This document shows positions 4,241 through 64,000 of a DNA stretch of 64,000 nucleotides, one piece after another; position 1 is the first letter of the stretch; every line of letters begins with the position of its first letter. The notes under the pieces were generated by a model. It saw only the letters and a program-made list of their open reading frames with translations. It was not told where the DNA came from and made no database searches. Both the position numbers and the translations under genes were made by a program. This stretch comes from Silicimonas sp. (GTDB lineage Bacteria; Pseudomonadota; Alphaproteobacteria; Rhodobacterales; Rhodobacteraceae), in NCBI GenBank assembly GCA_022819605.1, contig JAJEGW010000182.1:1-64000 (forward strand). The letters are read 5' to 3'.

Positions 4241-4463
4241 GCGTTCGCGTGTCCCGCCAGATCGTCAGCCACGCGCCGCATCCCTTCACATGCCACCAGC
4301 GCTCATGAACCGGGCCTAGCGGATTCGGGACGGTCGTCAGGAATTCGACCCAGTCTTCATCGCCTGTCGCATGCGGGTCGGGCCGGTCCGGTTTCACGGG
4401 ACCGCCATATTCGAACTCGCTTTCGCTGCGATTGCCGCAGAACGGACAGGGGATGAGCATCAT
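4206..4463 (-). CDS. soxD: Sarcosine oxidase delta subunit (zinc-binding)
   Basis: Starting at ATG 4463, directly before LIPCPFCG, gives an 85-residue protein, the normal size of SoxD. C6 and C9 in CPFCG with H58 and C62 in WWHVKGCGAW form the expected zinc site of the delta subunit. The longer open frame up to 4628 lies inside soxB and was rejected. The gene begins 11 bases after soxB and its end overlaps soxA, which fits a single translationally coupled operon. Confidence 0.94.
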   Translation of the reverse strand: MMLIPCPFCGNRSESEFEYGGPVKPDRPDPHATGDEDWVEFLTTVPNPLGPVHERWWHVKGCGAWLTIWRDTRTHDIVEGPPDAG

Positions 4464-4474
4464 CGTCCCGCTCC

Positions 4475-41443: not shown

Positions 41444-44400
41444 TCAATCTGGCACTGCGAAGATCTGACCGGGGAAGATCAGGTCGGGATCGCGAATCCG
41501 GTCCGTATTGGCTTCATAGACGCGCACATAGAGAATGCCTCTGCCATATTTCTTTCGCGCAAGGCCCCAAAGCGTGTTGCCAGGCTGGATCGTGACGAGC
41601 GAAACAGGTGCGAGCATGGTGACCGGACTCTTGTCCAGCGCCTGAATGTCTTCGACAGCTTCACGGAGAAACGGAGTCTCCACACGCGAAATCACCCTGC
41701 CTTCCGCATTTAGCTCATCGACTCGAAGCGTGTAGGTGCCAGTATCGACATCCGGCAACGGCGTGCGCCACTGACCGCCCGCGCCCACATCGGCATCGAC
41801 GAGGTCCTTGTTGTCCAGGTAGATTCGAACCGATTCCGTACCAGTCGCACGTCCACCGACGGTGACTTCACCCTTCTCGTCATAGGCGATTGTGTCCACG
41901 GAGACGTTCTCCGGAACTTCAGGGTCGTCTCCGGAATCCTGAACAACCTGGACGCCGCTCTCGTCGGAGAGAAGAACGGTCGGCCTGCCTTGCCGTCCAT
42001 CCGACTGTTCTGCCGGACCGCTTGAGGCGGCAGCCGATGCCGTCTGTTCGACTTCGGGCTGTGCCGCCTGCTCGGTTGCAACGGCGGCCGACGCGATTTG
42101 CTCGACGTCGGACTGTTCTGCCTGATCGGTCGAAGCGACGGCCAGTGCAGTCTGATCGGCGTCGGGCTCCGACGCCTGCTTGGTTGAAATGGCAGCCGAT
42201 GCGGTCTGCTCGGCATCGGGCTGCGCTGCCTGGTCAGTTGAGGCGATCGCGTTGATCTCTGAAGATTCGTCGCTGGCTGCATCAGCGTCAATTGCAATCC
42301 TCACCGGCGCAACGGGTCCCAGAATCAGGGACGATGCGCCTTCGAGGATTGTGCCGTCCAGGCGGGTCTCGGTCAGCGTCATTTCACGAGGCTGATCAGA
42401 CACGCCGACTTCGGCGAAAATCACGAAATTGCCAGATCGATCCGCGATGGCTTCCCCGACCGGTTCCCCATTCAGGTACAACGAGACCGTCGCTCCCCCT
42501 TCGACGCCACGCCCTGCAATGACCGCACTGCCGCCGGGCTCGATACGGACAATGTCAAACGTTGCGATGCTCTCCGTGATCGACGCGGTCAATTCAGTTG
42601 CTGCGCCATCAACTGGTGCCACCTCATCAGACGAGTCCGCGGCCGCAACGCTCTCCGGTGCCGTCGTATCTGGAGCGTCCGCCGTTTCCGCCGTTTCCGC
42701 CGTCACTTGACCTTCGACAGTCGGGCCGTCATCCGTCGAAGGCACCAACGGTTCCGCAGGGTCCGTGGCTGCAACGCTCTCCGGTGCCGTCGTTTCCGCA
42801 ACGTCTTCCGATTCCGCCGTCACTTGACCTTCGACAGTCGGGCCGTCATCCGCCGAAGGCACCAACGGTTCCGCAGGATCCCTGGCTGCAACGCTCTCCG
42901 GTGCCGTCGTTTCCGCAACGTCCTCCGACTCCGCCGTCACCTTGCTCTCGACGGTCGGGCCGTCGTCCGTCGCAGGCACCACCGGTTCCGCAGGGTCCGT
43001 GGATGCAACGCTCTCCGGTGCCGTCGTTTCCGTGACGTCTTCCGATTCTGCAGTTTCCGCAGTCGCTTCGTCTTCTGCGATCAGGCCGTCGCCTTTCGCC
43101 GGCATCTCCGGTTTCGCAGTCTCCGTGGGTGCAATGCAATCCTGATCCGGCGCGTCCGTCGATTCCGCCATCACCTCGCACTCGGCGGTCCGGTCGCCGT
43201 CCGCCACAGGTGCCGTCGGTTCCACGGGCTCTGCGGCTGCAACGCTTTCCGATTCCGTCGTATCTGGTACGTCCACCGTTTCCGCCGTCACTTCGCCCTC
43301 GGCGGTCAGACCGTCATCCGCCACAGGTGTCGTCGGTTCCACCGGGTCCCTGGCTGCAACGCTTTCCGATTCCGTCGTTTCCGTAACGTCTTCCGATTCT
43401 GCAGTTTCCGCAGTCGCTTCGTCTTCTGCAATCAGGCCGTCGCCCTTCGTCGGCATCTCCGGTTTCGCAGTCTCCGTGGGTGCAATGCATTCCTGATCCG
43501 GCGCGTCCGTCGATTCCGCCATCACCTCGCACTCGGCGGTCCGGTCGCCGTCCGCCACAGGTGCCGTCAGTTCCACGGGCTCTGCGGCTGCAACGCTTTC
43601 CGATTCCGTCGTATCTGGTACGTCCACCGTTTCCGCCGTCACTTCGCCCTCGGCGGTCAGACCGTCATCCGCCACAGGTGCCGTCGGTGCCACCGGGTCC
43701 CTGGCTGCAACGCTTTCCGATTCCGTCGTATCTTGTACCTCCGCCGTTTCCGCCGTCACTTCGCCCTCGACGGTCGGGCCGTCTTCCGCCACAGGTGCCG
43801 TCGGTTCCACCGGGTCCCTGGCTGCAACGCTCTCCGGTGCCGTCGTTTCCGCAACGTCCACCGTTTCCGCCGTCACCTCGCCCTCGACGGTCGGGCCGTC
43901 TTCCGTCGCAGGTGCAACCGGTTCCGCAGGGCCCGTGGCTGCAACGCTCTCCGGTGCCGTCGTTTCCGCAACGTCCACCGTTTCCGACGTCACCTCGCCC
44001 TCGACGGTCGGGCTGTCTTCCGTCGCAGGCGCCACCGGTTCCGCAGGGCCCGTGGCTGCAACGCTCTCCGGTGCCGTTGTTTCCGCAACGTCCTCCGATT
44101 CCGCCGTCACCTCGCCCTCGACGGTCGGGCCGTCGTCCGTCGCAGGTGCCACCGGTTCCGCGGGTCCCGTGGCTGCAACGCTCTCCGGTGCCGTCGTTTC
44201 CGCAACGTCTTCCGATTCCGCCGTCGCTTCGCCCTCGACGATTGGGCCATCATCTGCTGCAGGTGCCACCGGTTCCGCGGGGTCCGCAGTTGCAACGCTG
44301 TCCACGTCCGGTACATCCGCCGAATCCAAGTCGTCGGCAGACTCCGTCGTGACGGAAGAATCAGTTCCGTCTCCAGTGATCGGACTCTCAGGCAGCAGCA

Positions 44401-44470
44401 CTATCCAAAGAATGGCCAGCAAGAGGGCAATGGTGGCGGCAGCAATGGCGCCTTTCCAAATTGGCTTCAC
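41444..44470 (-). CDS. Large acidic repeat protein with C-terminal LysM domain
   Basis: The 1008-residue protein starts at GTG 44470 (GGGAGAAAG upstream). It has one membrane anchor (residues 7-26), then a highly acidic, Thr/Pro/Glu/Ala-rich region of fourteen 39-residue repeats (53-601), an Ig-like module (about 633-721), a block of 18-residue Gln/Ala/Asp-rich repeats (743-826), a second Ig-like module (about 845-935) and a C-terminal LysM (956-1006, IQPGNTLWGLARKKYGRG). The anchor plus LysM suggests a tether from inner membrane to peptidoglycan, with the repeats as a disordered spacer. Length probably varies between strains. Confidence 0.88.
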   Translation of the reverse strand: MKPIWKGAIAAATIALLLAILWIVLLPESPITGDGTDSSVTTESADDLDSADVPDVDSVATADPAEPVAPAADDGPIVEGEATAESEDVAETTAPESVAATGPAEPVAPATDDGPTVEGEVTAESEDVAETTAPESVAATGPAEPVAPATEDSPTVEGEVTSETVDVAETTAPESVAATGPAEPVAPATEDGPTVEGEVTAETVDVAETTAPESVAARDPVEPTAPVAEDGPTVEGEVTAETAEVQDTTESESVAARDPVAPTAPVADDGLTAEGEVTAETVDVPDTTESESVAAAEPVELTAPVADGDRTAECEVMAESTDAPDQECIAPTETAKPEMPTKGDGLIAEDEATAETAESEDVTETTESESVAARDPVEPTTPVADDGLTAEGEVTAETVDVPDTTESESVAAAEPVEPTAPVADGDRTAECEVMAESTDAPDQDCIAPTETAKPEMPAKGDGLIAEDEATAETAESEDVTETTAPESVASTDPAEPVVPATDDGPTVESKVTAESEDVAETTAPESVAARDPAEPLVPSADDGPTVEGQVTAESEDVAETTAPESVAATDPAEPLVPSTDDGPTVEGQVTAETAETADAPDTTAPESVAAADSSDEVAPVDGAATELTASITESIATFDIVRIEPGGSAVIAGRGVEGGATVSLYLNGEPVGEAIADRSGNFVIFAEVGVSDQPREMTLTETRLDGTILEGASSLILGPVAPVRIAIDADAASDESSEINAIASTDQAAQPDAEQTASAAISTKQASEPDADQTALAVASTDQAEQSDVEQIASAAVATEQAAQPEVEQTASAAASSGPAEQSDGRQGRPTVLLSDESGVQVVQDSGDDPEVPENVSVDTIAYDEKGEVTVGGRATGTESVRIYLDNKDLVDADVGAGGQWRTPLPDVDTGTYTLRVDELNAEGRVISRVETPFLREAVEDIQALDKSPVTMLAPVSLVTIQPGNTLWGLARKKYGRGILYVRVYEANTDRIRDPDLIFPGQIFAVPD
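41993..42244 (-). repeat. Second coding repeat, 54-bp units
   Basis: About four and a half copies of an 18-residue unit like ASTDQAAQPDAEQTASAA encode residues 743-826 of the LysM protein, distinct from the 39-residue repeats. Confidence 0.8.
42668..44314 (-). repeat. Tandem 117-bp coding repeat, 14 units with a nested 351-bp duplication
   Basis: Fourteen units of 39 codons, each like TTAPESVAAT-x-PAEP..., encode residues 53-601 (the last unit has 42). Units 6-8 (43379-43729) and 9-11 (43028-43378) are near-identical three-unit blocks, including the odd QECIAP/QDCIAP unit. This shows a recent 351-bp segmental duplication on top of older single-unit expansion. Confidence 0.9.
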
Positions 44471-46075: not shown

Positions 46076-46780
46076 ATGCCAAATGCCGCAATCATCGGCG
46101 GCACGGGCGGGATTGGAGCCGGTATCGCGCGAGTTCTTGCCCACAAGGGCTGGGAGGTGACCGTCACTGGTGCCACAGCGGGCGAGGTCGAAAGGTACCT
46201 CGAAGCTGCGCCGGGTGCCTCGGCGGTCGCCCTGGACATCACCGACGACGATGCGGTCGAAGCCTTCTTCGAGGGCCTCACATCCTTGGACGGCCTTGTG
46301 AACTGCGCCGGCATCATCAGGAAGCTCGGCGAATTCGATCTGGACACCTTCCGGAAAGTAATCGACGTCAACCTCACCGGAACGATGCGATGCTGCCTTG
46401 CTGCGCACCCGCTGCTCGCCGCTGGCGGCGGCGCGATCGTGAACACCGGGTCGATGTACACGTACTTTGGCGGACCGCACGCGCCAGCCTACACTGCGTC
46501 AAAGGGTGCCGTGGCCCAGCTGACCAAGGCACTCGCAGGCAAGTGGGCGTCCGACGGCATTCGCGTGAACGCCATTGCACCCGGATGGATCGAAACACCG
46601 ATGACCGAAGCCATTCGCGGTGACGATTCGCGCGAACCCATCATCATGAACCGAACCCCTCTCGCTCGTTGGGGCCAACCCGCCGAGGTCGGTGCCCTTG
46701 CAGCCTGGCTGCTTTCGGAGGAAGCTTCATTCGTGACCGGCGCAACCTATCCTGTGGACGGCGGATATTCCGCGATGTGA
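46076..46780 (+). CDS. Short-chain dehydrogenase/reductase
   Basis: The 234-residue classical SDR has the cofactor loop IGGTGGIGAGIARVL (residues 7-21), NCAG, a catalytic Ser in GSMYTYFGG and YTASKGAVAQ with the Tyr-Lys pair, then the NAIAPGWIETPM segment. It is followed 5 bases later by a cupin dioxygenase gene, so the two likely form an operon. The substrate is unknown. Confidence 0.93.
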   Translation: MPNAAIIGGTGGIGAGIARVLAHKGWEVTVTGATAGEVERYLEAAPGASAVALDITDDDAVEAFFEGLTSLDGLVNCAGIIRKLGEFDLDTFRKVIDVNLTGTMRCCLAAHPLLAAGGGAIVNTGSMYTYFGGPHAPAYTASKGAVAQLTKALAGKWASDGIRVNAIAPGWIETPMTEAIRGDDSREPIIMNRTPLARWGQPAEVGALAAWLLSEEASFVTGATYPVDGGYSAM

Positions 46781-46785
46781 ACGAC

Positions 46786-47313
46786 ATGCCCATTGAATCC
46801 GAAGACCAGAATCCGATGACACCATATCAACTGCCCTTCCCGAAGGATGCGCTGGATGAAATCGTCATAGCGGATGCCATTCCGGTGGATGAGCGCCTAT
46901 GGGTGCCACAAACCGACACAGTGTCCTTCCGGCCGCTGTGCCTGAACCGAAGCCATGGATACTGGATGAACCTGCTGCGAGTTCGCCAGTCCGGATTCCT
47001 GTCGCGCCACCGGCATCCGCAGCCGGTGCACGGGTTCGTCCTGAAAGGAAGCTGGCACTACCTCGAACATGACTGGGTGGCACGCGAGGGCTCATACGTG
47101 TTCGAAGCCCCGGGCGAGACGCATACATTGGTCGTACCCGAGGATGTGGACGAGATGATTACCTATTTCCAGGTAAACGGCGTGATGATCTACGTGGACC
47201 CGTATGGAAAGGTCCAAGGCTATGAAGACGTCTTCACGAAGATCGACATGTGCCGAAAGCACTTCGCGGATGTCGGATTGGGCGAAGACTATGTCGATCA
47301 GTTCATTCGTTGA
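46786..47313 (+). CDS. Cupin dioxygenase, 2,4'-dihydroxyacetophenone dioxygenase-like
   Basis: From ATG 46786 the 175-residue protein is a single-domain cupin. GFLSRHRHPQPVHGFVLKGSWHYLEHDW contains the His-rich metal motif, and SYVFEAPGETHTLVVPED is the second cupin motif. It resembles bacterial 2,4'-dihydroxyacetophenone dioxygenase-family proteins, which cleave C-C bonds next to a carbonyl using non-heme iron. Pairing with the SDR suggests oxidation of an alcohol before ring- or chain-cleavage; this is inference. ATG 46816 is an alternative start. Confidence 0.8.
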   Translation: MPIESEDQNPMTPYQLPFPKDALDEIVIADAIPVDERLWVPQTDTVSFRPLCLNRSHGYWMNLLRVRQSGFLSRHRHPQPVHGFVLKGSWHYLEHDWVAREGSYVFEAPGETHTLVVPEDVDEMITYFQVNGVMIYVDPYGKVQGYEDVFTKIDMCRKHFADVGLGEDYVDQFIR

Positions 47314-47523: not shown

Positions 47524-49854
47524 GTGACCATGGAGACCTTCATTTCACTCGCAATGAGCCGGAGGTGGCTCACGGTGCTGGTTTCGGTGCTTGCAATTTT
47601 CTTAATTTCTGCGGGCACCGTGCGGCTGGTCGAGGTCGACGTAGATTTCCGAAACCACTTCAGCAAGGACGACCCGCGTGTCGTCGCACTAGACCAGCTG
47701 GAAGAAACCTACGCGCTGTCCGATTCCCTCCTTGTTGCCCTGGCGCCAAAGGATGGCACCATTTTCACGCGCGAAGCGCTCATGGCCGTCGAGGAGATGA
47801 CTGAGCAGCTCTGGTATACCCCATACGTTACACGCGTCGACTCGATCACCAACTACTCACACAGTTGGGCGGTCGGAGACGAGCTTATCGTCGAGTCACT
47901 GGTCGAAAACGCCGCCGAGTTGACTGAAAGTGACCTGGAGCGGATCAAGGAAATCGCGCTTGGAACGGAAGAGATAGCTGGTCGCTTCGTCGCCCGGGAC
48001 GGGCGCGTCGCTGGGCTGACGGTCAATGTCGTGCTCCCAGAAGGCAGCCGACAGCAGGCCAAAGTGGACGTGGTCGACTTTCTTCGCGGCACCGCCGCCG
48101 AAGCAAGTGCCAGCCATCCAAGCATCGAATACCACCTCACCGGCGAACTCTTTCTCAACCGGTCCGTTCGCGATGCGCTAAACGAAGAAATGGCGAAGCT
48201 CGGGCCGATCGCGTTTCTGACAATGCTGGTCGTAGCTTTCGCATTGCTTCGATCGATATCTGCGGTGGGTGCAATCGTCATCATGCTGGTTGCGGTCATC
48301 ATGTCAGGACTTGGATTCGCCGGCTGGGCCGGCCTAAAGCTGTACGGCGAAAGCGGTGCAGCGCTGTTCGTCTTGATGGCAGTTGCCGTCGCACACTCCA
48401 TGCATGTCATAGAGGGAATGCTTGCTCAGATGCGTCAGGGCATGGATCGGAGGCAAGCGGTCGTACATTCCGTTCGATCAAACATGTGGCCGGTATTCCT
48501 CACGTCACTCACGACCGCGATCGGTTTCCTGAGCTTGAACTTCTCGGAGATGCCACCGTTTCGTATCATGGGCAATATCGTCGCGTTCGGCGCGATGTGC
48601 GCATTTGTTTATTCAGTCACGCTGTTGCCTGCATTGCTTTCGATCCTTCCTGTGAGCGCCCGACCTCTGCGCGAAGGCAAACGCACCTTCTTCGATCTGT
48701 TCGGACGATTTGTCGTCTCTCACCACATTGCATTGTTGTTTTCTTTCGGGGCAGTTATCGTCGTGCTGATAGCCGGCGTTTCACGGATCGAACTGAACGA
48801 AAATCCTCTCGAAATTCTCGACAGCAGCTACGAATACCGTCGATCCACGGACTTCATCAGCGAGAACTTTGTCGGACTGGAACCGTTCGAGTACTCACTC
48901 AACTCCGGCAAGGAGGCAGGCATCACGGATGTCGACTATCTGCGTGATGTCGATGCCTTCGCCTCATGGTACAAAACACAGCCGGAAGTCGCCCACGTCT
49001 TTGCCATTTCCGATATTCTCAAGCGCTTGAACAAGAACTTGAATGGCGACAACCCAGACTACTACGTAGTGCCCGACGAGTCCGACCTCGCCGCGCAATA
49101 CCTGTTGCTGTACGAATTTTCCCTGCCGATGGGGCTTGACCTCAACAATCTAATTGATGTCGAACGGTCTGCCACACGCATGACGGTCGTGCTGAAGAGA
49201 TTGTCCGCACAGGAGAAGATCGATCTTGACAACCGTGCGCAGGATTGGCTGCGGCAGAACGCACCGAACCTGGAAACCGGAGCCACCGGAGTAACGCTTG
49301 TCGGGGCATATTCGATCAAGAGAAACATCGAAAAAATGCTCATCGGCACCTTTGTGGCCATGACGGTTGTCTCCTTGCTGCTTGTCTTCATCTTCAAGAG
49401 CCTCCGGTACGGCCTGATCAGCCTGATACCCAATTTCATTCCCGCCGCCATGGCGATCGGCGCTTGGGGTTATGCAGTGGGGGAGATCGGTGTTGCGGCT
49501 TCGGTCGTGACCGCCCTAGCCTTCGGTATTATTGTCGATGACACAATTCACTTCTTGACCAGGTATCTGCGAGCCCGCAATCAGGGACTTCTGCCGTCAG
49601 AGTCCGTTCAGTCAGCACTCCACTCGGTGGGCAAGGCGCTGTTTGCGACGACTGTCGTGTTTGCTCTCGGATTCCTCGTGTTCGGTGCATCGGGGATGGC
49701 GAGCAACCAATCGCTTGGCCTGTTGATGGGGACAACGGTTGTCATTGCCCTGCTGGCAGATTTTCTTTTCCTGCCACCTCTTCTGATGGCGCTTGACGGG
49801 GCCAAGGAGTCGACCAAGCAGATCAGGGACCGCCTGCGACAGGATGTTCTTTAG
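47524..49854 (+). CDS. MMPL-type RND transporter
   Basis: The 776-residue protein has two MMPL halves, each with a periplasmic domain after the first helix (after residue 32 and after about 415) followed by five or six helices. GIIVDDTIHFLTRYLRAR in helix 10 is the conserved RND proton-relay region. It belongs to the HpnN/SSD-like family that moves lipids, hopanoids or other hydrophobic compounds. The start is GTG 47524 or ATG 47530. A partial inverted repeat around TCAATTGA at 47485-47492 lies close upstream. No adaptor protein is adjacent. Confidence 0.88.
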   Translation: MTMETFISLAMSRRWLTVLVSVLAIFLISAGTVRLVEVDVDFRNHFSKDDPRVVALDQLEETYALSDSLLVALAPKDGTIFTREALMAVEEMTEQLWYTPYVTRVDSITNYSHSWAVGDELIVESLVENAAELTESDLERIKEIALGTEEIAGRFVARDGRVAGLTVNVVLPEGSRQQAKVDVVDFLRGTAAEASASHPSIEYHLTGELFLNRSVRDALNEEMAKLGPIAFLTMLVVAFALLRSISAVGAIVIMLVAVIMSGLGFAGWAGLKLYGESGAALFVLMAVAVAHSMHVIEGMLAQMRQGMDRRQAVVHSVRSNMWPVFLTSLTTAIGFLSLNFSEMPPFRIMGNIVAFGAMCAFVYSVTLLPALLSILPVSARPLREGKRTFFDLFGRFVVSHHIALLFSFGAVIVVLIAGVSRIELNENPLEILDSSYEYRRSTDFISENFVGLEPFEYSLNSGKEAGITDVDYLRDVDAFASWYKTQPEVAHVFAISDILKRLNKNLNGDNPDYYVVPDESDLAAQYLLLYEFSLPMGLDLNNLIDVERSATRMTVVLKRLSAQEKIDLDNRAQDWLRQNAPNLETGATGVTLVGAYSIKRNIEKMLIGTFVAMTVVSLLLVFIFKSLRYGLISLIPNFIPAAMAIGAWGYAVGEIGVAASVVTALAFGIIVDDTIHFLTRYLRARNQGLLPSESVQSALHSVGKALFATTVVFALGFLVFGASGMASNQSLGLLMGTTVVIALLADFLFLPPLLMALDGAKESTKQIRDRLRQDVL

Positions 49855-51962: not shown

Positions 51963-52595
51963 TTACATGGCATCCTTGGCAGGGTCGATGTCCAGCAATT
52001 CGAACGCGCGGCCTTGCCGTTCCGTCGGCTTCGCCATCAGCGGGAAGGCGTGGTCCGGACTGCCCGGCAGCCCGTCAGGGGTGCGTTTAGTGTCGGTCTT
52101 GGCCTTCGCGCACTCCGAGACCTCGGCCTTTTCCACAGGCGAACTCCGCTGCGCCCGGGCGCCCTCCCGGTCGTCGTCCTCGAACAACAGCGGCGCCAGG
52201 CGCCGGCGCATGTGCCATTTCACGTGGCATGCAAGCACGCACAGGAACACTTGGGCGCGGACATGCTCCTCCGAGCAGGCGTGGACCGGCCGGATCCGCA
52301 GCCGCGAGGCCTTCATCGCGAGGAACGCACGCTCCACGCTCGCGAGCGACATGTACGCCTCCACCGCGGCTTCCGCGCCAAGCGACGAGGCGTCCAGGCT
52401 GGTGCGGATCACGTAGATCCCGTCGAGCCGCGCCTCCTCGGCGATCCTCTCCTCCCGCCGGCTCCAGGAGACGCCGTCGTCCGTGACCGCGATCTCGAAG
52501 TGCTTCTCCACCTTGCGCCGGTTGGCCTCCCTCCCGATGGCCTTGATGGCCTGGTCGCCGTTCGCCGGCCTCGGCTTCCGGCTGTAGGGTCTCAC
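51963..52595 (-). pseudogene. IS1634-family transposase, C-terminal part with internal deletion
   Basis: The 210-residue open frame contains the hallmark stretch GIYVIRTSLDASSLGAEAAV then EAYMSLASVERAFLAMK (the DDE Glu region) and VRAQVFLCVLACHVKWHMRR. It starts abruptly in the middle of the catalytic domain and lacks about 20 residues after KRTPDGLP. The missing upstream portion appears at 53523-53672 in the same orientation, beyond an inserted GC-rich segment, so the transposase gene was probably split by that insertion. Confidence 0.8.
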
Positions 52596-55836: not shown

Positions 55837-57873
55837 TTGGTGACTCACGAAACAGCAGCTGAGACGGGCCAGAAGGCGGCCGAGTTGACTTTGCCCGAAG
55901 AACTGTTGCTCGCGCTGCTGGACGAAGAGCGGGGTTATTTTCGTCAGGTGCCCGGTTGGAACCTGAACTGCGCAATGGTCGGCGCAGCTCTGGGTGAATT
56001 GTCGCTGCTCGGTCGCATCGACACCGATCTGGAGTCGCTGACTCTGTTGGATGCGACCGATACCGGTCGTCCGCTGCTCGACCCAATCTTGCGGGAGATC
56101 GCTACCGAAACCGAACCACACGATGCCCGCTACTGGATAGAGCGGCTTGCTCCACAGTCCGAGGCGGTGATCTCTCAAGCGCTGGACGAACTCGTTCGGC
56201 GAAAGATCCTCAACGCCCACTCGGGCGGTTTCTATACGTTCGCCAGGCGCCAGCGATCGGGCGAAACACCGCCAGGAGAAGACCACGTGGCGGGCGAAAT
56301 CGTAAAGGCCCAGTTGACCAGGATCATCTTCACGGACGAGATTCCTGGTCCGCGCGACGTGATCATCACCGGCCTCGTCAATGCCTGCCGCGTTTTCCAT
56401 CTGATGTTTCAGATCGACGAGGAGGTGGAAGAACGGATTCAGTTCGTCAGCCACATGGACCTGATTGGCCACGCGATTGCGGCGGCGGTGAGCCAAAGCA
56501 TCCTCGCGCCCTCGCTTCGCCGGCCCTCGCTGACCAAGCCAATTCCAACCGTGTCTCTGCGTGATCTCGTATTCAACCGCGAACTGCGGGAGGGCAGGCT
56601 GCCGGCGGGGTTCGCCAATTTGGCAGACAAGTACGGTCCGGTGTTCGAGCTTCGGCTCCCGTTCCGCCAGAACGTGATTTTCCTGGCAGGGTTGAAGGCG
56701 AATGAATGGGCCCATCGCATGGGGCGGCTGTTCTTGCGGTCGAAGGAGTATTTCGAGGGGGTCGACAAGGCGTATGGCGTGTCGCGCTCAATGCACTCGA
56801 TTGACGGCGCCGATCACTTTCGCTTTCGCAAGTCGTTGCATACCGCCTACTCCAGCAGGACCTTGACCAAGCGTCTGGATGAAGTCTATGATCTCGCCCG
56901 CGCGCACATGGCGAGTTGGGACGTCGGCACCACGATGCCGGTGCAAGTGATGCTGCGACCGTTTGTGAACGCTCAGACATCGCCGCTCCTAGCCAACATT
57001 GACACCCAAGCCGAGATTGTCGAAGCGCTCGAATTCAAGGTCCGGGTCCTCAATGTAGGCATCATCAAGATGATGCCGCGTTTCATGCTCAAGACCCCAT
57101 CGATGCGCCGCCGGGAGAAGGCCATGCAACAGATCCTGGATCGCATGCAAAGGACGCACACGGCCGCGCAGCGGGTTGGAATGCATGAAGACGTGGTAGA
57201 CGCGTATCTGGCCCTGCACTCGTCTGATCCCCAGTTTCTCCCCGAATCGGACCTGTCGCTGCCGCTAGGGGCGATCTTGATGACCGCGATGTACATGGGC
57301 GATCAGCTCGGTTTCACCCTTTATTGGCTACTGCAGAATCCCGAGTTGTACGAGCGAGTCACGGCTGAAGCGGACGCGTTGTGGGCCGAGGGGGATCCCA
57401 GCGAGGATGATTTCAGTCGAGACCGGATCGACGTGACCCACCGAGTGCTGATGGAGACTCTGCGGATGTCGCCGATCGTGCCCATGTCGATGCGCACGGT
57501 GATGAATACCTGCGTGGTGGAAGGTTACGAATTGCCTGTCGGGTCGCAACTCGTGATTGCACAGACGGCAACACACTACTCAGAAGAGGCATTTCCCGAT
57601 CCGTGGAAATTCGACATTGACCGCTACCTTCCTCCCCGAAACGAGCACAAGGGCAGAGGCTACGCACCTTACGGGCTGGGCACGCACTCATGTCTCGGGA
57701 GCCGCTGGGCCGACTTGCACATAGTGATCAACCTGCTGATGCTCACGCATTACTTCAAGATCGAGCTGGCCCGCCCCTACAAGCGGTTGCCGATGGATCC
57801 GTTGCCCTCACAGTCGCCCAGCAACAAGCTCAAGATCAGGCTCGCTGAGCAGCGGCACGAAATTCGAACCTGA
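55837..57873 (+). CDS. GPP34 domain-cytochrome P450 fusion protein
   Basis: The 678-residue protein starts at TTG 55837 or GTG 55840. Residues about 15-222 are a GPP34 (GOLPH3/Vps74-like) domain: LTLPEELLLALLDEERGYF, NLNCAMVGAALGELSLLGRI, LLDATDTGRPLLD. Residues about 235-675 are a P450 with the ExxR motif E540-T-L-R543 and a haem loop YGLGTHSCLG, ligand Cys619. The I-helix reads MYMGDQLGFTL where A/G-G-x-D/E-T is expected, so the usual acid-alcohol pair for O2 activation is absent. GPP34 domains bind membrane phosphoinositides in eukaryotes; here it could place the P450 at the membrane. It heads the plus-strand sterol genes. Confidence 0.88.
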   Translation: MVTHETAAETGQKAAELTLPEELLLALLDEERGYFRQVPGWNLNCAMVGAALGELSLLGRIDTDLESLTLLDATDTGRPLLDPILREIATETEPHDARYWIERLAPQSEAVISQALDELVRRKILNAHSGGFYTFARRQRSGETPPGEDHVAGEIVKAQLTRIIFTDEIPGPRDVIITGLVNACRVFHLMFQIDEEVEERIQFVSHMDLIGHAIAAAVSQSILAPSLRRPSLTKPIPTVSLRDLVFNRELREGRLPAGFANLADKYGPVFELRLPFRQNVIFLAGLKANEWAHRMGRLFLRSKEYFEGVDKAYGVSRSMHSIDGADHFRFRKSLHTAYSSRTLTKRLDEVYDLARAHMASWDVGTTMPVQVMLRPFVNAQTSPLLANIDTQAEIVEALEFKVRVLNVGIIKMMPRFMLKTPSMRRREKAMQQILDRMQRTHTAAQRVGMHEDVVDAYLALHSSDPQFLPESDLSLPLGAILMTAMYMGDQLGFTLYWLLQNPELYERVTAEADALWAEGDPSEDDFSRDRIDVTHRVLMETLRMSPIVPMSMRTVMNTCVVEGYELPVGSQLVIAQTATHYSEEAFPDPWKFDIDRYLPPRNEHKGRGYAPYGLGTHSCLGSRWADLHIVINLLMLTHYFKIELARPYKRLPMDPLPSQSPSNKLKIRLAEQRHEIRT

Positions 57874-57937
57874 GTTCGTTGCGCCCGCTCCTCCAGCGCC
57901 CGGTCTGGCCTGCGGTTCGGGAATTGAGGATTTCGCA

Positions 57938-58966
57938 ATGACATCATCTGGCGGCGGACGACCTCGCACCGTGCGGGTGATCACGGGAGCAAGTGGGCAC
58001 ATCGGCGGGGTCCTCGCGCGGGCCCTGGCTGAACGGCACGGGCCTCGTCAGGTCCGCGCGATCTACCGGAAGCGTCGAGGCACGGCAGCGGACCTGGATA
58101 TCGCATGGGTCAATGGTGACATCCTGAACAGGGAATCGCTGATCGCCGCTTTCAAGGGCGCAGAGATCGTGTTTCACTTGGCCGCGCTGGTCTCGATCGA
58201 TGCCGTCAGGGCGCAGGAACTCCATCGCACGAATGTCATGGGCACACGCAACGTCGTGGAGGCGGCGCTTGAATGTGGTGTACGGCGCTTGGTTCACGTT
58301 TCCTCGATCCACGCCTACGACCAACACCCGCTGGACGAAGTTCTCGATGAGAGCCGCGGTCCTGCGGATGGACCCCACCACGGTCCGTACGACCGTTCGA
58401 AAGCCGCCGGCGAAGTGGAGGTCCGTCGCGGCCTCGACCGCGGCCTCGACGCCGTGATCGTGAATCCAACCAGCGTAATCGGGCCCTACGACGGCAGGCC
58501 CTCACTTATGGGGCAGGTCTTTCTCGATCTCTACCGCAGGCGAATTCCCGCGCTGATCGCGGGCGGTTACGACTGGGTCGACGTGCGCGACGTCGTATCT
58601 GCCGTGATGGCCGCCGAGACACGGGCGAGATGTGGCGAGAACTACCTCGTCTCAGGTCACTGGAACACGATGCGCAAATTTGCCCAGCTCTCCCAGCAGG
58701 CGACCGGTGTAGCCGTACCCCGTCTCCAGTTCCCGATGTCTGTCGCCCGGTTATGGGCGCCCTGCCAGGTTTTCCTCGATCGATCTCGCGGCCGCCGGCC
58801 GCTCTACACGCCGACGGCCGTTCGCGTCATGGCCGAAGGCAATCGGCAGATATCCAGCGCCAAGGCGCAGGCGGAACTCGGGTTCCTCCCGCGCCCTCTC
58901 GCGGAGTCGGTCAACGACACGTATCGCTGGTTCGACGAACACGGCATGCTGTGTGCAAGGGCATGA
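57938..58966 (+). CDS. NAD(P)-dependent 3beta-HSD/SdmB-like dehydrogenase (extended SDR)
   Basis: The 342-residue extended SDR has TGASGHIGG (16-24), HLAALVS, VSS, and Y151-D-R-S-K155 as the catalytic pair. Its overall build matches NAD-dependent epimerase/3beta-hydroxysteroid dehydrogenase proteins such as NSDHL and the bacterial C4-demethylation enzyme SdmB. It lies 64 bases after the P450 and 1 base before the 5-alpha-reductase gene, so all three should be one operon. In this setting oxidation of the sterol 3-hydroxyl, perhaps with C4 decarboxylation, is the natural guess. Confidence 0.85.
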   Translation: MTSSGGGRPRTVRVITGASGHIGGVLARALAERHGPRQVRAIYRKRRGTAADLDIAWVNGDILNRESLIAAFKGAEIVFHLAALVSIDAVRAQELHRTNVMGTRNVVEAALECGVRRLVHVSSIHAYDQHPLDEVLDESRGPADGPHHGPYDRSKAAGEVEVRRGLDRGLDAVIVNPTSVIGPYDGRPSLMGQVFLDLYRRRIPALIAGGYDWVDVRDVVSAVMAAETRARCGENYLVSGHWNTMRKFAQLSQQATGVAVPRLQFPMSVARLWAPCQVFLDRSRGRRPLYTPTAVRVMAEGNRQISSAKAQAELGFLPRPLAESVNDTYRWFDEHGMLCARA

Positions 58967-58967
58967 G

Positions 58968-59729
58968 ATGACCGAGGAACGACTGCACGAGATGCTGGTA
59001 TGGGCTGTCCTCGTGACGGCAGTCCTGACGTTCCCGTACCTGCTCCGCAGAACCGCGCCCTATGGGCGTCACTATGCAGGCGCGGGCTGGGGACCCCACC
59101 TTTCCGCCAGGCTCGCCTGGATCATCATGGAACTGCCGGCGCCCTTGCTCTTCCTCGTGGTCTTCCTTAACGGCAAGCACGCGTTCCAGGTCGTGCCGTT
59201 GGCGTTTCTGGTCATGTGGCAGGGCCATTATCTGAACCGTACGTTCGTCTATCCGTTTCGCGTCAAGGGACGCGGTCGGGAGACGCCCCTCCTGCTGGTC
59301 GCGTCCGGCTTTTTCTTCAATGCGATCAACGCGTATATCAATGCCCGCTTCATCTCGGAATTCGGCGAGTACGCCATTGAATGGCTTGCCGAACCCCGCT
59401 TCCTGATCGGCGTCGGGATTTTTCTCGCAGGGCTCGCGCTCAATCTCCACTCCGACAACACCCTCATGTCCCTGCGCCGGCCCGGCGAGACAGGATATGC
59501 TATACCGCAAGGCGGCGGGTTCCGGTTCGTCTCGTGCCCGAACTACCTCGGGGAAATCCTCGAATGGCTGGGCTGGGCGGTCGCGACCTGGTCGTCGTGC
59601 GGCCTTGCGTTCATGCTGTTCACCGTCGCCAATCTCGCTCCGAGAGCGCGGAGCAACCATCGGTGGTATCTGGACAAGTTCAGCGATTATCCGGAGAACC
59701 GCCGAGCCCTGATACCAGGCATCTACTGA
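58968..59729 (+). CDS. Steroid 5-alpha-reductase (SRD5A-like)
   Basis: From ATG 58968 the 253-residue membrane protein is strikingly like animal SRD5A1/2: NLHSDNTLMSLRRPGETGY, IPQGGGFRFVSCPNYLGEIL followed by EWLGWAVATW, and a C-terminus with HRWYLDKFSDYPENRRALIP. E55 (MELPAP) and Y88 (GHYLNRTFVY) align with the human SRD5A2 residues E57 and Y91 that hold the steroid 3-keto group. About seven transmembrane helices. It should reduce a delta-4-3-keto steroid with NADPH. The ATG follows the dehydrogenase stop by one base. Confidence 0.9.
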   Translation: MTEERLHEMLVWAVLVTAVLTFPYLLRRTAPYGRHYAGAGWGPHLSARLAWIIMELPAPLLFLVVFLNGKHAFQVVPLAFLVMWQGHYLNRTFVYPFRVKGRGRETPLLLVASGFFFNAINAYINARFISEFGEYAIEWLAEPRFLIGVGIFLAGLALNLHSDNTLMSLRRPGETGYAIPQGGGFRFVSCPNYLGEILEWLGWAVATWSSCGLAFMLFTVANLAPRARSNHRWYLDKFSDYPENRRALIPGIY

Positions 59730-60274
59730 CTCTCGCGCGATCGTGCATTCGCACGGGCCGTAGCAGACACACGGGATTCTTCAACGCGTCCGGATTCTGC
59801 GTTGGTCAAGCCTGGAAGTTGGCACCGTCCTGACGGTCCGGACTAGGCAGAAGAGCCTGCCGGCCACACCGACGTGCGATTTCGCGCGGGCAGCGGCTGG
59901 TCATCGCGTCGGACCCAGGCGCTGGTGCCTCAGTTGTCCCTTGCGAGGTTACATGATTGCGGGAAGTCGCACTTCTTCGACCACGAATGGCCCGGGCCCG
60001 ACGCACTGAGCCTCCCCGACCTGACCTTGCGCTTCGCACGCTCGAAATTCAATCTGATCAGGGCGCTGACTCAACGTCGAGCAACCCCAAGACCCAGGAC
60101 TCCAGCTCCGACATTGGCGACCTCAAATGATCGACTTCCATCAGATGCCGTATCCGCCGGTCCGAATGCAAGCCGGACAGGTGGCCCAAGTGGATTGGGT
60201 GCGGATCACTCGCTAGCTGCATGTGCGTTTGACGGATGGGCATGAAGCCGACCGGCAGGAATCGACGGGCGCAC
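59730..60274. other. Intergenic stretch without a supported gene
   Basis: 545 bases between the convergent reductase and EBP-like genes. Short open frames on both strands have no recognised similarity and no Shine-Dalgarno. Possibly a decayed gene. Confidence 0.4.
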
Positions 60275-61009
60275 TCATTGGCCAAGAACGCTGTAGTTGC
60301 CATCCGCGATCAGGCGGATTGAAACATAGAGGCCAAGAAGTGGGAAAAGAACCCATGGCGAATTCAAAGCAAAAACGTAAACGTACAGATCCCGCCGCTT
60401 AATCCTTGCATGCCGCCCGGCCATGAAGAAACTGATCCAGTAAACAGATGTGGCATGCACCAGCTGCCAGAAGAGCATCGCTCCGATAATTCCCGCAACA
60501 AGTGCCGGCATCAAGCCAAACGTGTAGGCGGCGAAAAGAACAAGTGTCGGGACAGGCGTTATCAGCCCGTTTCCAAGATCCACATTGTAGCCATACGTGG
60601 TCCGGTCGGCATACGAGCCGTCGACATGCGAATATGCAGCCCAAACGTCAGCCCATAACGTTGGCGACGCGAATCCTGACAGCGGCACCTTTCCGGCAAG
60701 GAATTCAACAGGAGGAGATCGCCTGGTCTCTCGCCAGTGCCTTTGCCAGTATTCGGCGCGCTCTTCGATGTAATCGCGCCTGACGAGCAGGCACAATTCC
60801 CAGTAACAAATTACGAGATTGGCCGAAAAAAACAGAATCATCGCGGCGTGAACCAGATCGAAGTCCCCAAGAACCACGGCGCGCGCGCCTATTCCGACCA
60901 AAGTCAAAATTGAGATGGCCAGAATTGCAATCAACAACACTGGCACTGCAATAAGTGGCTGATCCGAGCGGGGATCGGATTGCACTTGAGCAGTTTGGTT
61001 CTCAGGCAT
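60275..61009 (-). CDS. Five-helix membrane protein, candidate EBP/EXPERA-like sterol isomerase
   Basis: The 244-residue protein has five hydrophobic segments (about 18-48, 51-76, 148-165, 167-196, 208-234), as in emopamil-binding protein (sterol delta8-delta7 isomerase). Segments that align by eye with EBP are the second helix with E71, the loop WAAYSHVDGSY (EBP W-x2-Y-x3-D-x-RY) and the last helix with N216 and W219 (FALNSPWVLFP). The His four residues before the helix-2 Glu of EBP is not conserved, so activity is uncertain. Location among sterol genes supports the call. It overlaps the preceding frame by one base (TAATG). Confidence 0.45.
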   Translation of the reverse strand: MPENQTAQVQSDPRSDQPLIAVPVLLIAILAISILTLVGIGARAVVLGDFDLVHAAMILFFSANLVICYWELCLLVRRDYIEERAEYWQRHWRETRRSPPVEFLAGKVPLSGFASPTLWADVWAAYSHVDGSYADRTTYGYNVDLGNGLITPVPTLVLFAAYTFGLMPALVAGIIGAMLFWQLVHATSVYWISFFMAGRHARIKRRDLYVYVFALNSPWVLFPLLGLYVSIRLIADGNYSVLGQ

Positions 61010-61284
61010 TAATTCGTATCCTCAATGTAGGGCCCGACTGTTCGGCTCTGCATGTTGCATCGCCAGATGCAGTCAGAACGGACTTCTTTCCCATCGGACG
61101 TTTGCGGCAAGTCTCGCGACATGTGCATCAGCGCAATTTCCATGCTCATCCCTGCAGGTGAATTGCCAAGCAACTCCGCCGCTTGGCGCCATCCTGACGC
61201 GGCAGCCAAAGTCACATGGCGCTTCGACCCACGCAGGACCGCAATGGCCAGGCACACGGCCAGCAAGCCTTGTGTACTTGGCAT
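61009..61284 (-). CDS. Possible small protein coupled to the EBP-like gene
   Basis: A 91-residue frame from ATG 61284 ends with TAA that shares its last A with the start of the next gene (TAATG), the main argument for coding. The N-terminus is mildly hydrophobic (LLAVCLAIAVLRG). No family is recognised and no good ribosome-binding site precedes it. It could instead be an untranslated leader. Confidence 0.3.
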   Translation of the reverse strand: MPSTQGLLAVCLAIAVLRGSKRHVTLAAASGWRQAAELLGNSPAGMSMEIALMHMSRDLPQTSDGKEVRSDCIWRCNMQSRTVGPYIEDTN

Positions 61285-61622
61285 TCAATTATATTTGCAT
61301 GGGCTCCCCTGCAAGGCTCACCCGCGCACGGTTCCGTGGCGGCCACTCTTCTTGATTGAGACATCTCCCAAATTTTGCCGCAGAACCGCACTGACCCGGG
61401 AAATTGCTTCCCGATCAGCCAATTCTACACTTGCCAAGATCGGTCGCATCATGAGCCTGTAGTCTCCAAAAGGCCGTCGCTTCGGTGCGGGGCCGCAATG
61501 AAGATCACGCAGTCTCAAGCATCAACCTGAAGCTCTTGGGTTGCAGATAGCCCTGTAGCCGGCTAACTCCGCAAGACGATTTCGCGCTTGCGGGCGTCAC
61601 CCACCTTTGACACGGTCTGTCC
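61285..61622. other. Divergent intergenic region, no gene supported
   Basis: 338 bases between the minus-strand EBP-like unit and the plus-strand sterol methyltransferase; it should contain both promoters. A 66-residue minus-strand frame (61318-61518) has no recognised similarity. Confidence 0.4.
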
Positions 61623-62654
61623 ATGTTTCGTTCTTCTTCCAGTAAAGAGGGCACCCGCTCGCTCGGAAACCTCACCCCATCTGAAGTGAGGTCTGTGGTG
61701 GATGACTACAAGACGATCTATGGTGCGGGCGAGGACGGAAGGAAGGAACAGTACAGTTCGTTCGTGAATCACTATTACGATTTGGTGACCGACTTTTACG
61801 AATTCGGGTGGGGGCAATCCTTTCACTTTGCTCCCCGCCGCCGAGGCGAGAGCTTCGAGGATTCCCTGCTCAGGCACCAACATTTCATTGCCGACAAGGC
61901 GGCGCTCAAACCAGGAATGCAGGTTCTTGACCTGGGTTGCGGTGTCGGTGGACCGATGCTCAATATCGCGCGCCACTCGGGGGCCAATATAGTAGGCATC
62001 AACAACAACGCTTATCAAATCGAGCGCGCGAAAGTGCATACCAAAGACATCCGTTCCCTCTGCCGCTTCATCAAGGCTGATTTCATGCATATTCCCGAGA
62101 AAGACGATCACTATGATGCCGTTTACGCCATCGAAGCCACGCCCCACGCACCGGACAAGACGGAACTGTACAGGGAGATTTTTCGCGTCCTGCGCCCCGG
62201 AGCATGTTTTGCCAGCTACGATTGGTGCCTGACGGATGGTTTCGACTTCGGCAACGCCGAGCATCAGCGGATCAAGAACGCCATCATGATCGGGAACAGC
62301 CTGCCAAATATTCTGACCACGCCTGAAGTAGACTCCGCTTTGCAATCGGTCGGATTCGACCTTCTGGATGCCCATGACCGGTCATGCGATTCGGACCGGG
62401 AAACTCCGTGGTACCGTGCTTTGCAGGGACGCGACTTCACTCTTTCGAGCATTCCGCGAATACCGTGGGGCCGCGCGCTGGTCAATCTCACCCTGCGGGC
62501 TGGGGAAGCCACACGGGTGTTTCCCAAGGGCTCCCGAGCGGTCAGCACGCTGCTGAACAGGGCGGCCGACGCGCTGGTCGAAGGCGGCAAGTCAGGAATC
62601 TTTACGCCGATGTACTTCGTACTTGCCCGCAAACCTCCACGTTCAACTGACTAG
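61623..62654 (+). CDS. Sterol C24-methyltransferase (SMT/Erg6 family)
   Basis: The 343-residue protein follows plant and fungal sterol methyltransferases almost throughout. YEFGWGQSFHF (59-69) is the sterol-binding region I, LDLGCGVGGP (102-111) binds SAM, IEATPHAP (170-177) is region III with Pro for the usual Cys, and GIFTPMYFVLARKP (325-338) closes the Sterol_MT_C domain. It should add a methyl from SAM to the delta24 side-chain double bond. Its 3-prime end overlaps the convergent cyclase gene by 53 bases. SMT-type enzymes are characteristic of eukaryotes and rare in bacteria. Confidence 0.92.
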   Translation: MFRSSSSKEGTRSLGNLTPSEVRSVVDDYKTIYGAGEDGRKEQYSSFVNHYYDLVTDFYEFGWGQSFHFAPRRRGESFEDSLLRHQHFIADKAALKPGMQVLDLGCGVGGPMLNIARHSGANIVGINNNAYQIERAKVHTKDIRSLCRFIKADFMHIPEKDDHYDAVYAIEATPHAPDKTELYREIFRVLRPGACFASYDWCLTDGFDFGNAEHQRIKNAIMIGNSLPNILTTPEVDSALQSVGFDLLDAHDRSCDSDRETPWYRALQGRDFTLSSIPRIPWGRALVNLTLRAGEATRVFPKGSRAVSTLLNRAADALVEGGKSGIFTPMYFVLARKPPRSTD

Positions 62655-64000
62655 CCGGGTCCGCTTCGGCTCCTTCGCGAGCAGGCGAAGCAAAATTCAG
62701 TCGGTGGCGGCGCCGCTGCTCGTAGAGACCGAGCGCGTGCAGGGGAAAATATCGGCGGTAATGCGCGTAATCCAGCAGCGCTGTTCGGAAGAACACGCCA
62801 GCCATGTCCTGCTTGGGCCATGTCCCGTCCGGTTCCTGTGCGTCGATCAGGAAGCGGGCACCTCGCGAAATTGCGGCCCAGTCGGTTTCGCCTGCTTCAA
62901 GTAGCGCGATCAGCGCCCACGAGGTCTGTATGACTTGACTCTTCTCGTGTGGAACATAGCGACCGGTCAGGCAACCACTATGGTGCTCGCCCCATCCCCC
63001 GTCTTCCTGCTGGCGCTCCAGCAGCCAGCAGCAAGCTGCGCGCAGTGCCGGATCGCTCGGCCTGGTTCCATTCGCGACAAGGCCCCTGATGCCGAACAGG
63101 GTGCCGTAAATGTACTGTACCCCCCATACGCCGCGCCAACTGCCGTCGGCCTCCTGGTTCCGGCGCAGCCACAAGCCGCCCCTGGCGACGGCATCGCTGA
63201 CTGCAGACCCGCCACGGATTTCGGGAAATCGTTTCCCGCAGACCGCCAGCGCCGAGATGCAAGACGCGGTACACTCGACAAACGAATGCTCGGTCATCGA
63301 GTCACCGAACATCTCTGCAGGATTCAACCACTCCAGACCAATGGCCGAGCGAGTGGCCTCATAGCTGCCGAAGCCGCCATCGGGGTTCTGGCTTCGCAAC
63401 AGGAAGCCAGCCGCATCGCCAAGCACAGACGGGTCCACGTTGTCCCCGCGGGCAGCAACGAGCCCTAACACCGCCTCCGCCGAGCAGTCGCTCACTGGCC
63501 AGCCGTGCCACTCGCCGGCGAAGCACCAACCACCTTTGGGATCAGCGCGGTAGGCTTCGCGATATCCCTCGAAGCTGGCCTTGATCTGCTCGCCGAGCAA
63601 GAAATCAGCGCCGCGCTGGACTGCATCCGCAACACTGACTTGCTCAGGCACTGCAGCCAAAGCCTGCAGCGCAAACCCTGTATCCCACGTGGCGCTTCTT
63701 GCACCGGTGACCCGTGCGCCATCGTCTTCGTCTTCCCAGATCCAACCATTCATCTTCGACAGCGCCCGTCGGCAATCGACATCGTCCGGGTCGCGCAGCC
63801 ACAGCGAGAGAATGTTGAGAATGCCGCTGACCGGGGAGATGCTCGTATGGCTGGTGGTCTGCAGTTCCCATTTGATTTGCCGGACAATTTCATCCGTGCA
63901 TCGGGAGCGCAGACGCTTGCTGTGGAGACGCTCAAACAGCCGTGCAATGCTGTAGCCGGTCTTGAGCCAAATGCTTGGCTTCGCATAGAGGTCGGCGTCT
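62602..64000 (-). CDS. Oxidosqualene cyclase (lanosterol/cycloartenol synthase type), N-terminus beyond window
   Basis: The frame is open from the window edge (DADLYAKPSIWLKTGYSIAR) to TAA at 62602, giving the last 465 residues. The catalytic motif GEWHGWPVSDCSAEA (Asp codon 63487-63489) is the VSDCTAE of oxidosqualene cyclases; squalene-hopene cyclases have DxDD. QW repeats (QNPDGGF, QEADGSW, QQEDGGW, QEPDGTW) and MFGDSMTEHSFVECT are also OSC-like. In the position of Arabidopsis CAS1 Ile481 it has Val, as in lanosterol synthases, but keeps the CAS-like His477. The last 30 or so residues are extra and overlap the methyltransferase gene. Confidence 0.93.
   Translation of the reverse strand, partial: DADLYAKPSIWLKTGYSIARLFERLHSKRLRSRCTDEIVRQIKWELQTTSHTSISPVSGILNILSLWLRDPDDVDCRRALSKMNGWIWEDEDDGARVTGARSATWDTGFALQALAAVPEQVSVADAVQRGADFLLGEQIKASFEGYREAYRADPKGGWCFAGEWHGWPVSDCSAEAVLGLVAARGDNVDPSVLGDAAGFLLRSQNPDGGFGSYEATRSAIGLEWLNPAEMFGDSMTEHSFVECTASCISALAVCGKRFPEIRGGSAVSDAVARGGLWLRRNQEADGSWRGVWGVQYIYGTLFGIRGLVANGTRPSDPALRAACCWLLERQQEDGGWGEHHSGCLTGRYVPHEKSQVIQTSWALIALLEAGETDWAAISRGARFLIDAQEPDGTWPKQDMAGVFFRTALLDYAHYRRYFPLHALGLYEQRRRHRLNFASPAREGAEADPASQLNVEVCGQVRSTSA

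Follow-up and report, generated by a model that had tools for sequence, protein, structure and literature searches.

Bacterial sterol clusters and the Silicimonas locus

Sterol biosynthesis clusters have been described in sponge bacteria since 2020. The msbABCDEF cluster (for Melophlus-derived sterol biosynthesis), from a gammaproteobacterial sponge symbiont, codes for an NAD(P) oxidoreductase (msbA), a Rieske oxygenase (msbB), a C14-reductase (msbC), a C14-demethylase (msbD), a bifunctional squalene epoxidase/sterol cyclase with a lanosterol-type valine (msbE) and a sterol methyltransferase (msbF) (PMC7074536). Clusters of steroid genes (CSGs) were found in 115 of 537 Ircinia metagenome-assembled genomes (MAGs), in ten phyla and with signs of transfer, and were absent from the Tara set; in their layout ERG24, CYP51 and LSS lie on one strand, with DFR and a hypothetical gene upstream and, downstream on the other strand, either SMT or FDFT1 (PMC9531527). 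Bacterial sterol C24-methyltransferases (SMTs) are active in vitro and occur in clusters with sdmA, sdmB and other sterol genes, and the same work mentions 'fused SMO/OSC' homologs (PMC10070321). Cholesterol synthesis in Enhygromyxa and the chemistry of SdmABC have been described (PMC10202945), bacterial oxidosqualene cyclases (OSCs) have been divided into Groups 1 and 2 (PMC4919349), and further background is available (PMC13277303, PMC10942540). Here we describe a cluster of this kind in Silicimonas sp. (assembly GCA_022819605.1), which starts inside a stretch of 64,000 nucleotides (the window, positions 1-64000 of contig JAJEGW010000182.1, working label C98, 168,660 bp) and spans about 55.8 kb to about 70.8 kb of the contig. 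The draft genome (220 contigs, 4.45 Mb) has a completeness of 97.05 and a contamination of 6.15.

We consider it probable that this is a cluster of the msb/CSG type, likely to lead from squalene to C14- and C4-demethylated, C24-methylated sterols, the predicted first two steps being assigned to one fused protein. Its core genes stand in order on one strand, the squalene epoxidase (SQE) and the OSC are one polypeptide, and the SMT gene, next to the cyclase, is read from the other strand. The predicted functions encoded between 61623 and 70780 are the same six as in msb, as judged from the published description of msb and not from its DNA (PMC7074536), and the arrangement of ERG24, CYP51 and cyclase on one strand with SMT opposite matches the Ircinia layout (PMC9531527). 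That paper names the cyclase gene LSS, has neither 'fused' nor 'epoxidase' in its main text and leaves SdmA and SdmB unannotated, and its LSS alignment of 3765 positions would fit a fused length. The likeness to the SMTs tested in PMC10070321 lies in the presence of an SMT among sterol genes, and not in a comparison of the proteins.

Earlier work already covers the core cluster and its link with SMT, and likewise the fusion, which is msbE in PMC7074536 and 'fused SMO/OSC' in PMC10070321. A first-pass annotation of the window had recognised a bacterial sterol cluster with an SMT, which stands, and had taken it for something new, which does not, SMT-bearing clusters being on record (PMC7074536, PMC9531527, PMC10070321). 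The genes at the ends of msb are reported to have no likeness to sterol genes (PMC7074536), whereas here genes for an EBP-fold protein, an SRD5A-like reductase, a short-chain dehydrogenase/reductase (SDR) and a GPP34-P450 fusion adjoin the core. The cluster itself is largely explained, and interest falls on this accessory arm, the GPP34-P450 first.

The core genes

From 70780 to 62602, all on the minus strand, the contig carries in this order genes for an SdmB-like protein, an SdmA-like Rieske protein, an ERG24-type reductase, CYP51 and the SQE-OSC fusion (equivalent to msbE); the SMT gene (61623-62654, plus strand, 343 residues, equivalent to msbF) adjoins the latter. The six neighbouring sterol-type reading frames of the first-pass annotation (55837-64000) are all present, five of them with clear families (Pfam, NCBIfam) and matches far beyond chance. 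Its GPP34-P450, SMT and OSC were confirmed, as were the CYP51, the SdmA and the epoxidase that it had proposed to look for past 64 kb, the second as an SdmA-like gene and the third as a part of the cyclase protein.

The cyclase frame is cut by the window end, which leaves inside the window the C-terminal 465 residues (62602-64000, minus strand; Pfam SQHop_cyclase_C, 1.8e-54). The whole gene runs from 62602 to 66045 without a stop and codes for 1147 residues, with FAD_binding_3 (6.2e-19, residues 9-308), SE (8.3e-24, residues 155-380) and the N- and C-terminal cyclase domains (residues 480-1109). Because the epoxidase is fused to the cyclase, a search for it elsewhere is unnecessary, and a separate epoxidase gene past the window was rejected. 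The best PDB relatives of the two parts are 1w6k (466 bits, residues 488-1113), which we take to be human lanosterol synthase, and 6c6n (96 bits, residues 9-304), presumably human squalene monooxygenase. D455, C456, C533 and H232 are catalytic residues of human OSC, and in the alignment with 1w6k they correspond to D853, C854, C925 and H633 of the window fusion, V453 being V851. Among the 82 fusion loci described below, H232 is kept in all and V453, D455, C456 and C533 in 81. Valine at position 453 has been read as a sign of lanosterol (PMC10152446). The protein scores 726 bits with the OSC model TIGR03463, 517 bits with the wider squalene/OSC model TIGR01787 (cut-off 323) and 278 bits with the hopene cyclase model (cut-off 431). 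A squalene-hopene cyclase was rejected on 278 against 726 bits, and residues and scores bear out the annotated oxidosqualene type.

A second SQE-OSC fusion gene is found in the same genome, on contig C197 (5174 bp; 1431-4844, minus strand; locus L005). It is 73% identical to the window fusion over residues 35-1134 and groups with the copy of a Rhodobacter MAG (L018) and not with the window fusion. Its first codons, with the FAD motif GxGxxG, are unreadable in the same frame; a damaged copy, a paralogue and a contaminant contig of the bin are all possible.

Past the window, CYP51 has the M. capsulatus CYP51 as best PDB match (342 bits), and the reductase matches ERG4/ERG24 at 1.9e-70. The best NCBIfam models of the Rieske protein and of the SDR at 69656-70780 are SdmA (4beta-methylsterol monooxygenase, 394 bits) and SdmB (296 bits); neither score reaches its cut-off of 600, so that we regard these proteins as relatives of SdmA and SdmB of presumably similar function. 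The SMT contains Sterol_MT_C (1.6e-20; 73 bits, cut-off 21.7), the sole match to this family in the genome, and shows at residue 59 the sequence YEFGWG, in agreement with YEXGWG, which we take to be the motif of sterol C24-methyltransferases. Partial translations of HpnC (256 bits, cut-off 250) and HpnD (265 bits, just under the cut-off of 279) were recognised on contig C206.

A 244-residue membrane protein (60275-61009, minus strand) without a Pfam family at E 0.01 has a predicted EBP fold, on which the isomerase proposed in the annotation holds as a candidate sterol delta8-delta7 isomerase. Its identity to human EBP (8w0r, 6oht) is 10-11%, and single-sequence and profile searches of the PDB gave no useful relative. 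EBP catalysis depends on a set of His and Glu residues; in 25 aligned sequences E71, N216 and W219 are invariant and no His is found among the invariant columns, these columns being unmapped to EBP residues.

We infer the reactions and products of the cluster from these genes and their order. HpnC and HpnD, encoded elsewhere in the genome, would supply squalene, which the FAD domain of the fusion would epoxidise and the cyclase domain, with Val at 453, would close to a lanosterol-type sterol. CYP51 would then take off the C14 methyl group, the ERG24-like enzyme would reduce the resulting double bond, and the SdmA- and SdmB-like enzymes would take off one or both C4 methyl groups. The EBP-fold protein may shift the ring double bond, and the SMT would alkylate C24. 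The GPP34-P450 would likely oxidise the sterol; the SDR and the SRD5A-like protein could adjust ring A by formation of a 3-ketone and then reduction of a double bond, perhaps on host sterols, and an RND protein may move sterols.

Conservation of the locus

A protein search with the fusion gave 1712 proteins at E 1e-30, and every one of the 120 listed has the fused length (1098-1184 residues) and both domain sets. When named genomes were scanned with an alignment of 16 rows, 224 loci were confirmed and the best 80 were kept, which with the two copies of this genome make 82 loci; this sample leans to close relatives because of that selection, and the number of genes counted at a locus is a minimum because several contigs end near the fusion gene. 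Epoxidase and cyclase share one open frame in all 82 loci. The five core genes are all present in 57, and in 56 of these they follow the order SdmB-SdmA-ERG24-CYP51-SQE.OSC on one strand. Genes near the fusion include SMT (40 loci, either strand), EBP-like (27), GPP34-P450 (15), SRD5A-like (2) and SDR (2, at the chosen score threshold, namely the window locus and L009).

The titles of fusion-bearing MAGs name nine phyla (Pseudomonadota, Actinomycetota, Chloroflexota, Nitrospirota, Acidobacteriota, Binatota, Gemmatimonadota, Rhodothermota and Bacteroidota), six of the 82 rows, including the two own ones, being without a phylum. The closest locus among the best 80 of 224, L009, belongs to a MAG titled Silicimonas sp. 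whose fusion is 95% identical, and both results bear out the bacterial, probably alphaproteobacterial host of the first-pass annotation. In the order of the window, a fusion match at E 1e-60 was obtained in one of 292 genomes, its own; the 291 others all have a completeness of 90% or more and a contamination of 5% or less, with perhaps few sponge symbionts among them. The 'jk18x' MAG name pattern of the Ircinia study (PMC9531527) is borne by 22 of the 80 named loci, including L018, the nearest relative of the second own copy, whereas the pattern 'p16x' is absent from the main text of that study. The Silicimonas host is likely a sponge-dwelling bacterium. A quick tree (LG+G4) was made of the fusion family only and is not taken as proof of transfer. 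In eight Acidimicrobiia loci (L049, L054, L055, L060, L065, L069, L070 and L075) the fusion stands without CYP51, ERG24 or SdmAB in the flanking sequence, which in some of these loci extends only a short way to one side.

The accessory genes

The GPP34-P450 (55837-57873, plus strand, 678 residues) joins a GOLPH3-like domain (about 19-219; Pfam GPP34, 2.1e-27) to a cytochrome P450 (about 230-656; p450, 9.2e-34), and its AF2 model has a pLDDT of 86. The nearest structures are GOLPH3/Vps74 (3kn1, 2zii) for the first part and CYP51/CYP46A1 for the second; in the fold search the top P450 rows were CYP46A1 and CYP51, then BM3, within about 1.5 Z of each other, and no row was returned for the GPP34 part. 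Canonical P450 monooxygenases have a heme Cys, an ExxR motif and an acid-Thr pair in the I-helix. In an alignment of 40 sequences, the heme Cys and the ExxR Glu are kept in 39, the ExxR Arg in 40 and the I-helix Asp in 36, and the Thr position is occupied by A, Q, M or G in at least 37, which departs from the canonical pattern; in some P450s with this Thr replaced, the substrate provides the proton relay. W81, R90, R171 and R174 are, we assume, the residues of GOLPH3 in contact with phosphatidylinositol 4-phosphate; the Trp is kept in 40 of 40 sequences and the three Arg are not, by a weak profile alignment (27 bits), and the GPP34 domain lacks that residue set to this extent.

Relatives at E 1e-20 number 1325 in a database search, and the 120 listed all carry both domains. 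Fifty fusion-bearing genomes were taken by hand from the 80 (L009-L040 and 18 others for spread), and 46 of them had a GPP34-P450 match at E 1e-40 (both domains in 44 and only the GPP34 part in two, as read from the match rows; none in four). Within the order of the window it occurs in one of the 292 genomes, the same one as the fusion. The neighbourhoods of 20 GPP34-P450 genes in 20 genomes (L130-L149) were compared with 20 control windows, both sets chosen by hand (345 kb and 338 kb for controls, four windows per set being shorter than 16 kb). SMT was found in 8 of 20 loci, a KshA-type Rieske gene in 13 and an RND gene in 15, against none in the controls for each; any of SMT, OSC, EBP-like, CYP51, SdmA, ERG24 or KshA-type was found in 17, against two controls (one SdmA-type and one ERG24-type match). 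In literature searches for P450 together with GPP34 or with Golgi phosphoprotein 3, none of the matches listed, some of them on insects, was relevant, and sections 14 and 15 of PMC9531527 make no mention of GPP34-P450.

Other observations on these families can be added. An amine-oxidase-like FAD protein is found in 8 of the 20 loci and a LolA-like protein in 4, and one of their RND types weakly matches Pfam Sterol-sensing and NCBIfam BstA. The Silicimonas genome carries GPP34-type matches without P450 at C157:10396-11031 (38% to the window domain, one in-frame TAG) and C151:61461-62069 (29%). Its KshA-type Rieske gene lies on contig C75, with no obvious steroid context around it by eye.

The SDR (57938-58966, plus strand, 342 residues; Pfam Epimerase 5.7e-34, 3Beta_HSD 3.4e-20) had been annotated as a 3beta-HSD/SdmB-like dehydrogenase. 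The SDR type holds, also by NCBIfam; SdmB is not favoured, since HpnA (214 bits) and SdmB (212 bits) fit about equally and below their cut-offs, and the better SdmB candidate is the SDR at 69656-70780, outside the window. The overlapping SRD5A-like gene (58953-59729, plus strand, 258 residues) matches Pfam Steroid_dh at 1.5e-52 and has PbSRD5A (7c83, 269 bits) and SRD5A2 (7bw1, 163 bits) as PDB relatives.

The RND/MMPL-family transporter (47524-49854, plus strand, 776 residues; Pfam MMPL 3.7e-39) is HpnN-like by a weak score (117 bits, below cut-off). It is 69% identical to the RND protein encoded beside the GPP34-P450 in L130, which makes it a candidate sterol transporter; its membership of the cluster is presumed, because the gene lies 6 kb to the left. 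Between the two there is a fragment of an IS1634-family transposase (51963-52595, minus strand, 92 bits, cut-off 100), and genes for an SDR and a ChrR-cupin-like protein (46076-47313, plus strand) directly precede the RND gene. Further left, a 1008-residue protein (41444-44470, minus strand) contains, by eye, many similar Thr/Glu/Val-rich repeats and a LysM-like C-terminal end. Beyond the SdmB-like gene come a sarcosine-oxidase-type gene (Pfam) and then genes of housekeeping look; MutL, YebC, Tgt, Der and SerRS types were also recognised by eye on the contig, so that bacterial genes flank both sides of the cluster.

Weighing the readings

For the GPP34-P450 we propose, tentatively and with much less confidence than for the core cluster, a so far unrecognised role as a sterol oxygenase that associates with membranes and has atypical oxygen chemistry. 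It would be present in most sponge symbionts with sterol clusters, across many phyla, and we propose in the same tentative way that in Silicimonas it acts with the SDR and the SRD5A-like protein to remodel its own or sponge sterols to oxidised 5-alpha-stanols or stanones. Several findings weigh against the proposed core pathway or this extension of it. The curated cut-off of TIGR03463 (851) is not reached, and neither a C24-reductase nor a C5-desaturase was pinned down in the genome, which has three unassigned FA_hydroxylase matches, no search with activity-specific models having been made. CYP51, SdmA, ERG24 and OSC are not enriched near the GPP34-P450 (1-2 of 20, controls 0-1), the SQE-OSC fusion is near it in only one of the 20 loci, and the p-values of the neighbour test are too good because the families used as queries had first been picked out in those very loci. 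In another order, of 11 genomes, the GPP34-P450 is present in three of four with the fusion and in three of seven without it, which weakens any strict coupling of the two. The de novo route through SQE, OSC and CYP51 already yields 5-alpha-H sterols, and a 5-alpha-reductase is for this reason needed only for ketosteroids derived from delta-5 or delta-4 sterols. In the SRD5A-like protein the catalytic motif QEY is replaced by M-E-Y, with Met at the position of Q56 and Glu and Tyr kept, the same as in L009; Q56A and Q56L are inactive in human SRD5A2, and of its eight NADPH-contact residues seven are kept and H231 is Asn, by eye on the alignment (PMC7815742). The annotated reductase family stands, and the 5-alpha-reduction attached to it is weak.

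A first alternative is that the genes mainly salvage or remodel sterols of the sponge host, with little or no de novo synthesis. An SRD5A-like protein and enzymes of 3-ketosteroid type suit delta-5 or delta-4-3-keto sterols and not the products of the de novo route outlined above, and the SDR and SRD5A-like pair would be sensible for ketosteroids from delta-5 sterols, possibly those of the host. Three of the fusion-free genomes of the order of 11 (G342, G343 and G345) have a GPP34-P450 with an SMT nearby and no fusion match at E 1e-60, in keeping with a part in sterol metabolism where the cell makes no sterols of its own. We nevertheless judge this alternative unlikely, given that the complete set of epoxidase, cyclase with its key residues, CYP51, ERG24 and SdmAB, in one strand-ordered block, would be needless for salvage.

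A second alternative, that the cyclase yields a non-sterol triterpenoid (hopene-like or arborane-like) which the other genes tailor, appears more improbable still. Besides the missed TIGR03463 cut-off, it draws on two replacements in the window fusion (T381 of 1w6k is A782 and C449 is H847) and on loci L011, L019 and L028, in which a fusion and a GPP34-P450 are found without CYP51 or other core genes in the flanks (3.5 kb on one side in L028), possibly a minimal two-gene triterpenoid module. The much higher OSC than hopene cyclase score, the conservation of V453 and the catalytic D455, C456 and C533 and the presence of CYP51, ERG24, SdmAB-like and SMT neighbours speak for a sterol instead. That the contig is chimeric or contaminated with DNA of a eukaryote (the sponge), a concern raised in the first-pass annotation and suggested by the eukaryote-like enzymes and the contamination estimate of 6.15%, can be dismissed, since each gene is one frame without introns, bacterial genes stand on both sides, GC content in 4-kb steps is 57.9-63.3% throughout and the occurrence of the fusion in bacterial MAGs of nine phyla speaks strongly against it.

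Significance

The msb/CSG-type core, the preferred reading, would add to the bacteria that could in principle produce C24-alkylated sterols, and its natural SQE-OSC fusion is a ready test case for the coupling of two steps. The new handle is provided by the accessory genes: the GPP34-P450 family near SMT, KshA-type Rieske and RND genes, the unannotated EBP-fold protein and the ring-A pair in this lineage. If the GPP34-P450 does remodel sterols as proposed, part of the unusual sterol profile of the sponge would be written by its bacteria. The interpretation of what are claimed to be the oldest animal biomarkers (24-isopropylcholestane) turns on who makes the sterols of sponges (PMC10070321).

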